A DNA stretch of 64,000 nucleotides, from NCBI RefSeq assembly GCF_014725735.1, contig NZ_CP061368.1, positions 945,225 through 1,009,224 of the forward strand, given 5' to 3'. The notes below the pieces were generated by a model. The model made no database searches. It saw only the letters and a list, made by a program, of their open reading frames with translations, and was not told where the DNA came from. Positions 28,887 to 33,782 of the stretch are shown in pieces. Position numbers and translations under genes: made by a program. Positions within the stretch are counted from its first letter, which is position 1; the number at the start of each line of letters is the position of its first letter. The stretch comes from Wenzhouxiangella sp. AB-CW3. GTDB taxonomy: Bacteria; Pseudomonadota; Gammaproteobacteria; Xanthomonadales; Wenzhouxiangellaceae.

Positions 28887-29864
28887 ATGTCTCTTCAACC
28901 TGCCACTGCCCGGGCCGGCGCCAATATCGCCCTGGTCAAGTACTGGGGAAAGCGTGATTCCGGCCTGAATCTGCCGGCAGCCGGCTCGATCTCGATCACC
29001 CTGGCCGAGCTGGAAACGCAGACCACCGTGGCGCCGATGGCCGATCTGAGCGATGACCGGCTGGAACTCGACGGCCAGTCCGCTGATCCCGCGCGTATTC
29101 GACCGGTGCTCGACCGGTTTCGTGCTCGCTCGGGCGTGGATGCAAGGTGCCGGGTGGAAACGCGGAACAATTTCCCCACCGGCGCCGGCCTGGCTTCCTC
29201 TGCATCCGGTTTTGCCGCCTTGGTGACGGCCGCCGATGCCGCCTTCGCGACCGGACTGGATGAACGGGGACTGTCCATCGAGGCCCGGCTGGGCTCGGGC
29301 TCGGCCGCCCGCTCGATCTTTGGGGGCTTTGTCGAGATGGCTTCCGGTACCCGCGTCGATGGATCGGATGCCCATGCCAGCGCGCTGGCGGACGCTCCGC
29401 ACTGGCCGCTGGAGGTGGTGGTGGCCATCACCACCCGCCAGGCCAAGGCGGTGGCTTCGACCGAGGGTATGAATCACACCATGTCGACCTCACCGTATTA
29501 CCCGGCCTGGTTGAGTGGCATGGATGCGGATCTGGAGCAGGCCCGAAACGCGATCGCCCGACGGGATTTTGAGCAGCTCGTGGCCGTGACCGAATCCAGT
29601 GCCCTGAAGATGCACGCCTCGGCCCTGGCGGCTCAGCCCGGTATCCTTTACTGGCACGCTGCCACCGTGGCCTGTCTGCACGAAATTCGGTCGATGCGCC
29701 TGGCCGGCACCGGCGTGTGCTTTACCGTGGATGCCGGGCCGCAGGTCAAGGCCGTCTGTCTGCCGGGACAGGGCAAGCGGGTGGCCCGGCGTTTGGCTGA
29801 CATCGATGGCGTTGAGCAGGTGGTGCAGGCCCGCCTGGGTCCGGGTGCGGAGGTTGTGTCCTGA
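28887..29864 (+). CDS. mvaD: diphosphomevalonate decarboxylase
   Basis: This 325-residue GHMP-superfamily enzyme converts mevalonate diphosphate to isopentenyl diphosphate. It shows ANIALVKYWGKRD (about 11-23), the family's N-terminal signature, and the phosphate loop PTGAGLASSASGFAAL. ATG 28887 is used because MSLQPATARAGANIALVKYWG fits the family start; an upstream TTG at 28854 is less likely. It is the first gene of the mevalonate operon; its TGA overlaps the next ATG. Confidence 0.93.
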   Translation: MSLQPATARAGANIALVKYWGKRDSGLNLPAAGSISITLAELETQTTVAPMADLSDDRLELDGQSADPARIRPVLDRFRARSGVDARCRVETRNNFPTGAGLASSASGFAALVTAADAAFATGLDERGLSIEARLGSGSAARSIFGGFVEMASGTRVDGSDAHASALADAPHWPLEVVVAITTRQAKAVASTEGMNHTMSTSPYYPAWLSGMDADLEQARNAIARRDFEQLVAVTESSALKMHASALAAQPGILYWHAATVACLHEIRSMRLAGTGVCFTVDAGPQVKAVCLPGQGKRVARRLADIDGVEQVVQARLGPGAEVVS

Positions 29865-30913
29865 TGCCTCTGAAAGCCGGTGCGCCGGGCAAGGCGGTAC
29901 TGCTCGGAGAGTACGCGGTGCTCGATGGTGCGCCAGCACTGTCCCTGGCGGTGGATCGCCGTGCGCGGGTGGACCTGGAGGCGAGCTCCGGGGTGGGTCG
30001 CATCGAAGCGCCTCAGCTTGATATCGAGCCCATTGCATTCGAGATTGGCGCCCATGGCGCCCTGAGCTGGTCGGGCGCCGAGAACAGCCTGGCCGCGTTC
30101 CGGAGAACCGCGGCCATTCTGGAACACCTGGTTGCCCATGCCTGGCGCCGATACGGTGGAGTTGAGCCATTCAAGCTGCGCATTGATACAGGCGGGCTGT
30201 TTCACGGCGGTATCAAGCTGGGTCTGGGCTCGAGCGCGGCATCGGTCGTGGCCCTGGATGCGGCCATCACCGCACATGCCAGCCGCCGTCGTGGCCGTGA
30301 ATCGCCCGAACAGGTGCTCGAGCGGCTGCTCCCCGTTTACCGCAGCAGCCAGGGTGGGCATGGCAGCGGCATTGATCTGGCCACCAGTCTTTACGGTGGG
30401 GCGATTGCCTATCGCCTGGCCGGCCCTCGGCCGGTCGTGCAGCCCGTGGCCCTGCCGGAGGGGCTGCACCTGATGTTCATCTGGACCGGTCAGGCGGCCT
30501 CCACGCCTGATCTGGTCGCGGCCTGGTTTCGTTTCCTCAGGCGTCACCCGGACGATGCCCGCGAGCTCGTCAATGCGATGCGGCGGGTATGCCATGAAGG
30601 ACTGGAAGCGCAGCAGGCCGGCGATGCGGGTGAACTGGTCCGGCAGATCGGCGAGTACGGGCGTGTTCTGGGTACAATGGGCGATTGCGCCGGAATCCCG
30701 GTGGTTACTGCTGCGCATCGCCGGGCCATGGACCTGGCGCTTGAGCATGGTGCCGTGTGCAAGCCCTGTGGGGCCGGCGGCGGCGACCTGGCTGTGGCGG
30801 CCGCCACTTCCCCGCAGGCCCTGGCCAGCCTGGCCGATGCACTGCGCGGGACCGGACTGGATGCATTTTCGCTGGCTGCCGGCAAGGATGGCAGCCGGGT
30901 GACCGAGGCCTGA
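29864..30913 (+). CDS. phosphomevalonate kinase
   Basis: The 349-residue GHMP kinase starts APGKAVLLGEYAVLDGAPALSLAVD (N-terminal substrate and nucleotide region). It has the glycine/serine loop LGLGSSAASVVALDAA and C-terminal PCGAGGGDLAVA. Placement between mvaD and the reductase-kinase fusion, and the fact that the fusion supplies mevalonate kinase, identify this as the phosphomevalonate step. ATP-dependent phosphorylation of phosphomevalonate is the assigned reaction. Confidence 0.88.
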   Translation: MPLKAGAPGKAVLLGEYAVLDGAPALSLAVDRRARVDLEASSGVGRIEAPQLDIEPIAFEIGAHGALSWSGAENSLAAFRRTAAILEHLVAHAWRRYGGVEPFKLRIDTGGLFHGGIKLGLGSSAASVVALDAAITAHASRRRGRESPEQVLERLLPVYRSSQGGHGSGIDLATSLYGGAIAYRLAGPRPVVQPVALPEGLHLMFIWTGQAASTPDLVAAWFRFLRRHPDDARELVNAMRRVCHEGLEAQQAGDAGELVRQIGEYGRVLGTMGDCAGIPVVTAAHRRAMDLALEHGAVCKPCGAGGGDLAVAAATSPQALASLADALRGTGLDAFSLAAGKDGSRVTEA

Positions 30914-30928
30914 AACGGAGCCTGCCGC

Positions 30929-33199
30929 ATGGAACGATCACGCATACCGCAGTTCTACAAAATGTCCGTGCCGGAGCGAGTGCGCACGGTGCATGACCGT
31001 GGATTGCTGGGACCCGAGGACTACCAGGTCCTGAAGTCCGGTCGGCACACGCTGTCGGTGCAGCTGGCCGACAAGATGATCGAGAATGTCATCGGCGTGA
31101 TGGGCCTGCCGGTCGGTCTCGGGCTGAACTTCCTGATCAACGACAAGGAATACGTGGTTCCCCTGGTGGTCGAAGAGCCGTCCATCGTGGCCGCGCTCGG
31201 CTCGGCGGCCAAGCTGGCGCGCTCGGCTGGAGGGTTCACGGTCGAAAGCACCGAACCCCGCCTGATCGGCCAGATCCAGATCGTCGATGTCGCTGATCCG
31301 GCCCGGGCAAAAGCCACCCTGCTGCAGCGCAAGGACGAGATTCTCAACCTTGCCAACAGCCTTCACCCGAAGATGATTGCCCGCGGCGGCGGGGCCAAGG
31401 ACCTGGAAGTCTACATTCATCCCTCGCAGGGCATTGGCGGTGACATGGTCGTTGCCCATCTGCTGGTCGATACCTGCGATGCGATGGGCGCCAACCTGGT
31501 CAATACCATGTGCGAGGGCGTTGCCTCGCTGGTCGAAAACATGGCCGACGGGCGGGTTTTCCTCCGGATTCTGTCAAACTTGACCGACCGCGCACTGGTG
31601 CGGGCGAAGGTGCGGATTCCCGTGAGCCTGCTGACCGGCAAGGGCTTTGATGGCGAGCAGGTGCGCGACGGCATCATCGTGGCCAACGATTTCGCCCGCG
31701 TTGACCCCTACCGGGCCGCCACCCACAACAAGGGCATCATGAACGGCGTGGATGCGGTCGCCCTGGCCACCGGCAATGACTGGCGGGCCATCGAGGCCGG
31801 CGCCCATGCCTATGCCGCCCGGGGCGGCCGATACACCTCGCTGACCAGCTGGACCTGTGCCGACAACGGCGACCTGCTCGGAGAGCTTGAGATTCCACTC
31901 AAGGTCGGTACCGTGGGCGGCCCGCTGCAGACCAACCCGACCGTGGCGCTGAACCTGCGCATGCTGGGCGTCGAGAGTGCTCGCGAGCTTGCGGAAGTCA
32001 TGGGAGCGGTGGGGCTGGCCCAGAATTTCTCGGCCATCCGTGCACTGGTCACCGAAGGCATTCAGCAGGGACACATGACGCTGCATGCACGGTCCGTGGC
32101 CACCGCTGCCGGGGTGCCGCCCGAGCTGTTCGATACGGTGGTCGAGCGCCTGATTGCCTCGGGCGAGATCAAGGTCTGGAAGGCCGCGGACATCATGCGC
32201 GAAGTCGCCGAGCAGAGTGCATCCTCGATTCGTGCCGTGTCCCGGACTGAAGAACAGGAGACGCTGGAAGGCGAACGACTGGGTGCCGGTCACGGCAAGA
32301 TCATCCTGCTCGGCGAACATGCCGTGGTCTATGGTCGCCGGGCCATTGCCGCGCCCATCCCACTGGCCATTCAGGCCCGGGTCGAAGATGCGCCGGAAGG
32401 CGTGGAGCTGATCATCCCGCGCTGGGGGATCGAGCAGCGGCTGGACTTCAAGGCCAAGCGACCGCCATCGTTTGCCAAGTCCATGGCGCGTGTGCTGTCG
32501 GCACTGGATCTCGAGAATCGCGGCATGCGTATCGAGGTGTTCCCCAATGTGCCGCGCGCGATGGGGCTGGGCGGTTCGGCCGCGTTGGCCGTGGCTGTCA
32601 TCCGCGCCATCGACCTGCATTTCCGCCTCGGGCTGGATGATGAGCGCATCAACGAGCTGGCCTTTGAGTGCGAGAAGGTGGCGCATGGAACGCCTTCGGG
32701 GCTGGACAATACCCTGGCAACCTACGGTGAGTTCACGCTCTTTCGCCGCGGCGAGGACGCCTGCCGGGAAATCATCGAGGTCAGTCAGCCGCTGCCGATC
32801 GTGATCGGCATGAGTCGGACTGAAAGTCTCACAGCGCGTACCGTGGCCAGGGTCCGCGAGGCCTGGCAGCGCAATCCCGATCTTTACGATCGCATTTTTG
32901 ATGAAATCGATACCCTGGCCGGCCAGGGACTGGAAGCGCTCAAGAGCGGTGACTACGAAACCCTGGGCGAGCTGATGAACGTCTGCCAGGGGCTGCTGAA
33001 CGCCATGCAGGTTTCGAGCTGGGAGCTGGAAGAGCTGATCCAGGTGGCCCGCAACCATGGTGCGGTGGGCGCGAAATTGACCGGAGGTGGGGGCGGTGGA
33101 TCAATCATTGCCCTGTGCCCCGATGACAGTGCCCGGGTGGCTCGGGCCATCCGCGAGGCGGGTTATCACGCCCTGGAGGTGTCCATTGGCCAGACTTGA
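30929..33199 (+). CDS. fused HMG-CoA reductase - mevalonate kinase
   Basis: One 756-residue frame holds two enzymes. Residues 1 to about 430 are a class II HMG-CoA reductase. They carry Glu83 (VVEEPSIVAAL), Lys268 (HNKGIMNG), Asp284 (TGNDWRA) and His382 (GHMTLHAR), which align with Pseudomonas mevalonii E83, K267, D283 and H381. Residues from about 453 to 756 are a mevalonate kinase: GKIILLGEHAVVYG, the loop MGLGGSAALAV (545-555), GTPSGLDNT (Asp593) and C-terminal KLTGGGGGGS. A linker of about 20 residues (RTEEQETLEGERLGAG) joins them. The frame is continuous with all key residues on both sides, so a sequencing artefact is unlikely. Both activities act in consecutive steps, HMG-CoA to mevalonate to phosphomevalonate. 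Confidence 0.93.
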   Translation: MERSRIPQFYKMSVPERVRTVHDRGLLGPEDYQVLKSGRHTLSVQLADKMIENVIGVMGLPVGLGLNFLINDKEYVVPLVVEEPSIVAALGSAAKLARSAGGFTVESTEPRLIGQIQIVDVADPARAKATLLQRKDEILNLANSLHPKMIARGGGAKDLEVYIHPSQGIGGDMVVAHLLVDTCDAMGANLVNTMCEGVASLVENMADGRVFLRILSNLTDRALVRAKVRIPVSLLTGKGFDGEQVRDGIIVANDFARVDPYRAATHNKGIMNGVDAVALATGNDWRAIEAGAHAYAARGGRYTSLTSWTCADNGDLLGELEIPLKVGTVGGPLQTNPTVALNLRMLGVESARELAEVMGAVGLAQNFSAIRALVTEGIQQGHMTLHARSVATAAGVPPELFDTVVERLIASGEIKVWKAADIMREVAEQSASSIRAVSRTEEQETLEGERLGAGHGKIILLGEHAVVYGRRAIAAPIPLAIQARVEDAPEGVELIIPRWGIEQRLDFKAKRPPSFAKSMARVLSALDLENRGMRIEVFPNVPRAMGLGGSAALAVAVIRAIDLHFRLGLDDERINELAFECEKVAHGTPSGLDNTLATYGEFTLFRRGEDACREIIEVSQPLPIVIGMSRTESLTARTVARVREAWQRNPDLYDRIFDEIDTLAGQGLEALKSGDYETLGELMNVCQGLLNAMQVSSWELEELIQVARNHGAVGAKLTGGGGGGSIIALCPDDSARVARAIREAGYHALEVSIGQT

Positions 33200-33782
33200 T
33201 CAGGCCGGTCCGGCCCGGATCGTGTCTTCCGACAGCGAGGAGCTGATACTTGTCGATGAGCACGACCGCGAACTCGGCACGCTGTCGAAAGGAGACTGCC
33301 ATGATGGCGACGGTGTCCTGCATCGCGCCTTTTCGGTATTCCTGTTTGACCCTCAGGGCCGTCTGCTCATCCAGCAACGCGCCGCCGACAAGCGACTGTG
33401 GCCGCTGTACTGGGCCAACAGTTGCTGTTCGCATCCGCGTGCCGGCGAGCACATGGATGAAGCCACCCGGCGGCGGGTCGAGGAAGAGCTGGGTGTGGCG
33501 GCCGAACTGGAGTTCGTCTACAAGTTCCAGTACCACGCTCGCTACGGCGAGCTGGGTTCGGAGCACGAGCTGTGCTGGGTCTACACGGGCCGCACCACCG
33601 TCAGCGAGGTCCGCCCCAACCCCGCCGAGATTGCCGACTGGAAATTTCTCTCACCCGTGGATGTTGACGAGCTGGTCGCCGACGAGCAGGCGCCGGTCGC
33701 GCCATGGTTTCGGATGGAGTGGCGTGAGCTGCGGGAGCGGCACTGGGAGCGCATTGCCAGGCTGACTGATGCGGGGCGGTGA
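33186..33782 (+). CDS. idi: isopentenyl-diphosphate isomerase, type I (Nudix)
   Basis: The 198-residue enzyme interconverts IPP and DMAPP. Type I features are HRAFSVFLFDPQGRLLIQQRA, the WANSCCSHPR active-site Cys segment, the Nudix-like ATRRRVEEELG and the GSEHELCWVY Glu motif. The TTG at 33186 is preferred as start: GGAGGT (33175-33180) sits 5 nt upstream, inside the end of the fusion gene, giving a 14-nt overlap and translational coupling. GTG 33222 is an alternative without a binding site. Confidence 0.9.
   Translation: MARLDQAGPARIVSSDSEELILVDEHDRELGTLSKGDCHDGDGVLHRAFSVFLFDPQGRLLIQQRAADKRLWPLYWANSCCSHPRAGEHMDEATRRRVEEELGVAAELEFVYKFQYHARYGELGSEHELCWVYTGRTTVSEVRPNPAEIADWKFLSPVDVDELVADEQAPVAPWFRMEWRELRERHWERIARLTDAGR

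Follow-up and report, generated by a model that had tools for sequence, protein, structure and literature searches.

A natural fusion of class II HMG-CoA reductase with mevalonate kinase in Wenzhouxiangella and its relatives

Textbooks list the supply of mevalonate as a point at which isoprenoid synthesis is controlled, and in engineered pathways it is a bottleneck. In Wenzhouxiangella sp. AB-CW3, a 64,000-nucleotide stretch of DNA (hereafter the window) contains one gene that appears to encode both the enzyme that makes mevalonate and the enzyme that phosphorylates it. Is this fusion genuine, how did it arise and what would it be for? The explanation that we favour, and regard as probably right as a whole, is a naturally bifunctional HMG-CoA reductase-mevalonate kinase (HMGR-MK) with a co-localising tether, supplied with HMG-CoA from leucine catabolism in genomes that lack HMG-CoA synthase. 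The leucine component is held more tentatively and is discussed below.

An earlier note on this DNA described a single 756-residue frame carrying a complete class II HMGR followed by a complete mevalonate kinase. The open reading frame and searches with Pfam and NCBIfam models agree with that description. With Pfam, HMG-CoA_red matched residues 17-387 (364 bits), whilst GHMP_kinases_N (PF00288) and GHMP_kinases_C (PF08544) matched residues 517-599 and 668-746, both above cut-off. The NCBIfam model for class II HMGR, TIGR00532, covered residues 1-387 (409 bits, cut-off 260). That for mevalonate kinase, TIGR00549, covered residues 455-729 (247 bits, cut-off 163), and the fusion alone reached this cut-off among the four cluster proteins scanned. 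Hence, the first half has the model match, the catalytic E, K, N and D and the flap H of a class II HMGR. The second half has the model match, both GHMP domains and the catalytic K, S, E and D of a mevalonate kinase. In searches of the PDB, the best match of the reductase half was Pseudomonas mevalonii HMGR (1qax; residues 4-425, E 3.9e-124), and the kinase half matched the mevalonate kinases 2hfs (E 6.7e-44) and 6mde (E 1.6e-38). No solved chain among the PDB matches listed for the two halves is named as a reductase-kinase fusion. We infer from sequence that the protein has both enzyme activities. The features of the locus are collected in Table 1.

Table 1. Features of the mevalonate gene cluster in the window
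Feature	Position	Strand	Remarks
Diphosphomevalonate decarboxylase	28887..29864	+	TIGR01240, 268 bits (cut-off 171)
Phosphomevalonate kinase, divergent	29864..30913	+	TIGR01220, 111 bits (below cut-off of 166)
HMGR-MK fusion gene	30929..33199	+	756 aa plus stop; ATG start; one uninterrupted frame
Class II HMG-CoA reductase part	30929..32203	+	residues 1-425; E83, K268, N272, D284, H386; C-terminal flap
Linker	32204..32284	+	residues 426-452; 432-448 predicted disordered (pLDDT <50); no invariant column across fused proteins
Mevalonate kinase part (GHMP kinase)	32285..33199	+	residues 453-756; K457, S550, E582, D593; KLTGGGGGG loop
Type 1 isopentenyl-diphosphate isomerase	33222..33782	+	NF002995, 177 bits (cut-off 127); inferred start, GTG 33222

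The earlier note also saw all catalytic residues in both halves. We aligned the protein with those of 81 further fused loci, giving 82 rows. The residues counted as catalytic are those that we take to be so from the literature on P. mevalonii HMGR and rat mevalonate kinase; the C-terminal flap is likewise our assignment, from class II structures. The five reductase residues (E83, K268, N272, D284 and H386) and K457 of the kinase were kept in 82 of 82 rows, and S550, E582 and D593 in all 80 of the 82 rows that are untruncated there. Thus, the catalytic residues are invariant wherever they are present. Of the 109 positions that never vary in the alignment, 74 belong to the reductase and 35 to the kinase; the linker has none. 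Between anchors the linker spans 9 to 90 residues, and it is in frame in all 81 fused loci. The lowest identities to the fusion of the window among fused proteins were approximately 50% for the reductase and 46% for the kinase. An AlphaFold model, made with 62 aligned family members, has two confident domains with a break at residues 432-448 (mean pLDDT 85.9, pTM 0.54).

The fusion lies in a compact cluster on the + strand, between genes for diphosphomevalonate decarboxylase (MVD) and a divergent phosphomevalonate kinase (PMK) on one side and type 1 isopentenyl-diphosphate isomerase (IDI) on the other. For the decarboxylase the open reading frame begins at TTG 28854, and ATG 28887 is the inferred start. 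The position of PMK between MVD and the fusion was seen again in related cassettes. The order MVD-PMK-HMGR/MK-IDI was found at many related loci and across phyla, for example at five Calditrichota loci (L026, L027, L034, L038 and L044), in Acidobacteriota (L042) and at one Planctomycetota locus (L046). Variant orders place IDI, MVD and PMK after the fusion (L036), IDI before the fusion (L033) or MVD turned (L043). In Bacillaceae, HMGR, MK, MVD and PMK are all separate genes. PMK varies fast. In loci of the same genus (L004-L014, L107 and L108) its identity to the window gene (29864-30913) is 32-64%; the reductase halves in these loci are 84-94% identical to that of the window. A putative histidine kinase and response regulator, named from their translations and not by family search, flank the cassette in the window, in L015 and in L107.

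We next consider the distribution of the fusion. The earlier note proposed to search for the domain order and to map its taxonomic spread. A set of 101 genomes (our own and 100 relatives) was searched at a threshold of E 1e-3. Matches were found in 52 genomes, and 41 of these had a full-length fusion. Within the family of Wenzhouxiangella, the fusion was full length in 36 of 43 genomes and truncated in three more; two incomplete genomes, G014 (73% complete) and G021 (65%), had no match in this search. One of the three truncated copies, in G040, gave a short match suggestive of a damaged kinase gene, a possibility that we rejected on finding an assembly gap of 686 N inside the kinase. A collection of named genomes yielded 590 confirmed stretches. 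The analysis covers the best 80 of these, a sample that is biased toward fused loci. Both halves were matched by 48 of the 80; eight were adjacent genes of Bacillaceae in different frames, and 24 were reductases with no kinase found behind them. The earlier note had named a stop or frameshift in the linker as what would undo its reading. Among these best 80 of 590 stretches, 47 of the 48 two-half loci are free of stops between the halves; in two of these 47 the contig ends within the kinase. The exception, L060 from Myxococcaceae, has a stop in the linker. Apparent in-frame stops in G095, G046, G066 and G057 were rejected as signs of split genes, because on re-reading these loci (L097-L100) the frame proved open from the reductase as far as the 200th residue of the kinase.

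Many loci are metagenome bins and so their taxa are given only as in the record titles. On that basis, and among the matches listed, fused loci occur in Pseudomonadota, Calditrichota, Acidobacteriota, Planctomycetota and Actinomycetota. Those of Pseudomonadota include Dyella monticola, a Nevskia MAG, a Salinisphaera MAG and Woeseiaceae. Those of Actinomycetota are from three Cryobacterium strains, one Cryobacterium MAG and one Nakamurella MAG. When 369 genomes drawn from across the class, our own included, were searched at a threshold of E 1e-60, 28 matched, nine with full-length fusions and 18 with the reductase only; the remaining one, G279, has a frame of 390 residues whose match starts at residue 366 of the query. 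Ten of the 18 reductase-only matches were placed in the reductase tree, and all ten lie outside the fused branch. A search of plasmids gave 53 records, and in no case did the match extend over 80% of the query. The fusion recurs well beyond the window; it is not unusual in its own lineage and belongs to an old family across five phyla by record title.

To reconstruct the history of the fusion, we classified 125 loci: 81 as fused, nine as adjacent genes, 32 as reductase-only and three as undecided. The HMGR tree held 104 of 126 rows. The 22 rows outside it were 13 fused (near-copies or truncated), six reductase-only, one of them a 29% match (L104), and three of undecided state. Both this tree and the MK tree were quick searches supported by SH-aLRT only. 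In the HMGR tree all 69 fused rows fell on one side of one branch (SH-aLRT 100). Nearest to them were the eight rows of Bacillaceae, in which the genes are adjacent, and two of Myxococcota, one adjacent and one reductase-only. Among its 104 rows, a sample that favours fused loci, the fused branch contains no split member. In the MK tree, inclusion of L060 (branch length 4.61) meant that the fused group required two changes of state. A second MK tree left out this locus for its very long branch; here, a single branch (SH-aLRT 100) again set the 69 fused rows apart. Comparison of the two domain trees, with 78 rows, gave 37 of 75 splits in common; when labels were shuffled the mean was 0.4. The histories of the two halves are thus congruent. 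That the fused rows of the HMGR tree share one branch suggests a single fusion event and spread as a cassette. The simplest reading of the sequences is one fusion event, then joint inheritance of the halves and transfer between phyla. A side observation concerns G036, where a free-standing second mevalonate kinase (L101:5970-6890, - strand) starts right at the end of the fusion gene. Its identity to the kinase half of the fusion in G036 is 77%, and we read it as a duplication of that half with the fusion retained.

The fusion is real, old and widely transferred, and it joins a known kind of protein, the fused isoprenoid enzymes. Among the open-access papers listed in our searches, no title or abstract described a reductase-kinase fusion. 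The earlier note, which did not recognise the architecture as described, is to that extent provisionally upheld. In the MvaE protein of enterococci a thiolase precedes HMGR. Like the fusion, MvaE has HMGR within a bifunctional protein of the mevalonate pathway. However, its partner is acetoacetyl-CoA thiolase, whereas here the partner is a GHMP kinase, which catalyses the following step of the pathway and is placed behind HMGR. Pfam found no thiolase domain in the fusion protein, which is thus not of the MvaE type. According to the portion of PMC13001223 available to us, MvaE of Enterococcus faecalis is a natural bifunctional protein that includes HMGR, and IspDF is a common natural fusion of isoprenoid enzymes that belongs to the MEP pathway and joins non-consecutive steps; IspDF is the subject of the single passage on fusion in that paper. 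Conversely, the fusion described here joins consecutive steps of the mevalonate pathway. Kept in several phyla, it offers engineers a natural part ready for use, and it allows a clean test of the reasons for fusing enzymes of successive steps.

What does the gene content of these genomes say about the role of the cassette? Dxr and IspH were each found in one of the 43 family genomes, the same one (G035), and this genome has no HMGR. HMGR was found in 41 of 43, being lacking in G035 and in G020, an 84% complete draft where neither HMGR nor Dxr nor IspH was found. The search of our own genome likewise found no Dxr or IspH. With Dxr and IspH limited to the HMGR-less G035, gene content indicates that the mevalonate cassette replaces the MEP pathway in this family. 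In its available text, PMC7691419 compares Wenzhouxiangella with Marinicella and reports both squalene synthase and the mevalonate pathway to be specific to the former; the words 'fusion' and 'fused' do not occur in that text.

The apparent absence of HMG-CoA synthase is more surprising than the fusion itself. Our genome (G000) is one contig, 99.99% complete, and had no match to PF01154; the same profile search was positive in seven of 14 control genomes. MvaS from the same-genus genome G026 gave only two partial matches in our genome, of 30% (E 2.4e-9) and 35% identity (E 7.3e-5), and such weak partial matches are present in the MvaS-bearing G026 too. Hence, a complete canonical mevalonate pathway, with HMG-CoA synthase encoded, was not found in our genome. 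Across the family PF01154 was found in 22 of 43 genomes, although in G031, G032 and G036 the match is a divergent relative only. The protein of G036 (L125:5130-6605, + strand) is very divergent (TIGR01835, scored for this genome only, 147 bits; cut-off 360). G031 and G032 have weak HMG-CoA-synthase-like matches; like G036, they hold the fusion without a typical MvaS. Ten of the 25 family genomes that are at least 90% complete have no PF01154. One is G035, with its MEP genes. The other nine (G000, G003, G011, G019, G022, G024, G025, G027 and G030) have a full-length fusion, no Dxr or IspH found and completeness of 94 to 99.99%; G000 and G027 are single contigs and the other seven are drafts. 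The lack of both synthase and MEP genes in complete or near-complete genomes poses a sharp question as to the source of HMG-CoA.

One answer would be leucine. In our genome, genes for a carboxyl transferase, a 3-methylglutaconyl-CoA-hydratase-like enzyme and a biotin carboxylase (with a BT_MCC_alpha domain) lie together at C1:2719043-2723744. The best family of the hydratase-like enzyme is gamma-carboxygeranoyl-CoA hydratase (279 bits, below the cut-off of 426). No model names the carboxyl transferase or the hydratase outright and so their identities are read from gene company: we read the cluster as putative methylcrotonyl-CoA carboxylase and methylglutaconyl-CoA hydratase. Elsewhere in the genome, a gene for a thiolase adjoins one for HMG-CoA lyase. 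All nine synthase-less fusion holders have HMG-CoA lyase above cut-off and a relative of our carboxyl transferase (C1:2719043), that of G025 at 50% identity. Thus, leucine could supply HMG-CoA without the synthase, by way of steps that would be methylcrotonyl-CoA carboxylase and then 3-methylglutaconyl-CoA hydratase. There is a precedent: in the text of PMC5993337 available to us, Trypanosoma brucei is described as directing leucine-derived HMG-CoA into sterols, with the synthase also present. We considered the leucine genes as a marker of synthase-less genomes and rejected this, since the carboxylase is found in 37 and HMG-CoA lyase in 42 of the 43 family genomes, including synthase-bearing ones. 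Leucine supply is therefore a hypothesis and not a correlation. Our proposal is that leucine-derived HMG-CoA may be the source of all isoprenoid carbon in this bacterium and in eight or more of its relatives, the fusion being a branch-point enzyme that out-competes HMG-CoA lyase. We hold this tentatively, as a serious possibility that falls somewhat short of being probable. If true, these bacteria make the isoprenoids of their membranes from amino acids.

Some side observations bear on the synthase gene. In the loci matching both halves (best 80 of 590 stretches), 14 of 48 have an HMG-CoA-synthase-like gene in the flank that was fetched, and in Cryobacterium such a gene adjoins MVD. In G033 (L119:5861-9284, - strand) approximately 1 kb separates HMG-CoA synthase from rho. 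The mevalonate cassette of the window is itself flanked by rho and a response regulator. Hence, an HMG-CoA synthase gene may once have been near the cassette.

The observations above allow other explanations of the fusion to be weighed. That two genes were joined by an error of sequencing or assembly is so improbable as to be negligible, and we rejected it, having found nothing in its favour: the same fusion occurs in 81 loci from many assemblies, in frame and with linkers of many lengths, and neither the full-length copies in 36 of 43 family genomes nor the open frames of 47 of 48 two-half loci (best 80 of 590) are what an artefact would give. Alternatively, the fusion could be neutral, a stop having been lost between co-transcribed neighbours and the joined gene fixed by chance, with no gain over separate enzymes. 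The nearest unfused reductases, at eight Bacillaceae loci and one of Myxococcaceae, have the kinase gene directly downstream, so that fusion would be one small step, and the linker is unconserved. However, the fused branch holds no split member (104 rows, biased toward fused loci), and fused proteins, which by record title come from five phyla, include some with identities to the fusion of the window as low as approximately 50% in the reductase and 46% in the kinase. We thus consider neutral fixation unlikely, though it deserves to be kept in mind. The earlier note raised channelling, in which mevalonate would move between the active sites without mixing with the bulk. The steps are consecutive, and they are fused in 41 of 41 full-length matches among the 101 genomes. 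Conversely, the linker is variable and predicted to be disordered, and with a pTM of 0.54 no fixed interface is predicted. As the model does not fix the relative placement of the two domains, channelling is unsupported, and we regard it as improbable.

The reductase half might instead run oxidatively, the protein serving the use or breakdown of mevalonate and not isoprenoid synthesis. P. mevalonii HMGR, the best studied class II relative, is stand-alone, catabolic and degradative. The matched model TIGR00532 is named 'degradative', and our genome has HMG-CoA lyase with no HMG-CoA synthase found. Against this, the cluster encodes the steps to IPP and DMAPP, and the fused kinase would drain the substrate of an oxidative reaction. 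Furthermore, since no Dxr or IspH was found in our genome, isoprenoids should come from the mevalonate cluster. An oxidative role is hence very improbable. We infer the reductive direction from the cluster and the missing MEP pathway only.

We return to the fusion as a biosynthetic enzyme with a tether. Its likeliest role, judged from its domains and gene company, is that of a committed enzyme from HMG-CoA to mevalonate-5-phosphate. The N-terminal class II HMGR would reduce HMG-CoA to mevalonate. The C-terminal GHMP kinase, on a flexible linker behind the reductase flap, would phosphorylate mevalonate to mevalonate-5-phosphate, which the products of the neighbouring genes would take on to IPP and DMAPP. 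That the sequence of the linker is free but the connection is kept favours co-localisation and a fixed ratio over a rigid tunnel. Thus, the variable and predicted-disordered linker would fit a stoichiometry-fixing, co-localising tether better than a rigid tunnel, and the tether would mainly co-localise the kinase in a 1:1 ratio. Irreversible phosphorylation would pull the reversible class II reduction forward, with mevalonate neither lost nor re-oxidised. In genomes without the synthase, the fusion would compete with HMG-CoA lyase for leucine-derived HMG-CoA.

The fused halves differ in detail from stand-alone enzymes. The catalytic E, K, N, D and H are common to the fusion and P. mevalonii HMGR (1qax). 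However, Asp146 of the latter, the NADH determinant, aligns to His146 of the fusion (window 31364-31366), and His occupies this position in 80 of 82 fused rows. With His in place of Asp146, the cofactor preference of the fused reductase may differ from that of P. mevalonii HMGR. Stand-alone mevalonate kinases (2hfs; 6mde/4hac) share with the fusion the GHMP fold, the motifs and the catalytic K, S, E and D. Here, by contrast, the kinase lies behind HMGR, and its motif 2, canonically GLGSSA, is mostly GLGGSA (G in 59 of 80 rows). In class II HMGR the C-terminal flap closes over the active site. Because the kinase is attached behind this flap, some kinetic cross-talk between flap and kinase can be imagined, and we offer it as speculation.

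Finally, further HMGR genes occur in the family. A further HMGR of our own genome, of class I type and unlinked to the cassette, carries an HMG-CoA_red_N domain (C1:164344-165456 region; L117:14324-15952, - strand). Near-full-length second copies, judged class I by scores, were found in 16 of 43 family genomes. Compensation for the missing synthase by class I HMGR was rejected, as seven of the 16 holders are without PF01154 and nine have it. A different fusion, also reductase-kinase-like, was seen on contig 36 of G039 (L154:3829-6225, - strand), where a class I-type HMGR (PF00368, TIGR00533) is part of a 799 aa protein. A search of the PDB with the tail of this protein gave three matches, the best at E 0.033 and none convincing. 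Its C-terminal part has an ecdysteroid-kinase-like domain (PF02958, E 1.1e-10), and the gene adjoins one for a PPDK_N/PEP-utiliser protein.
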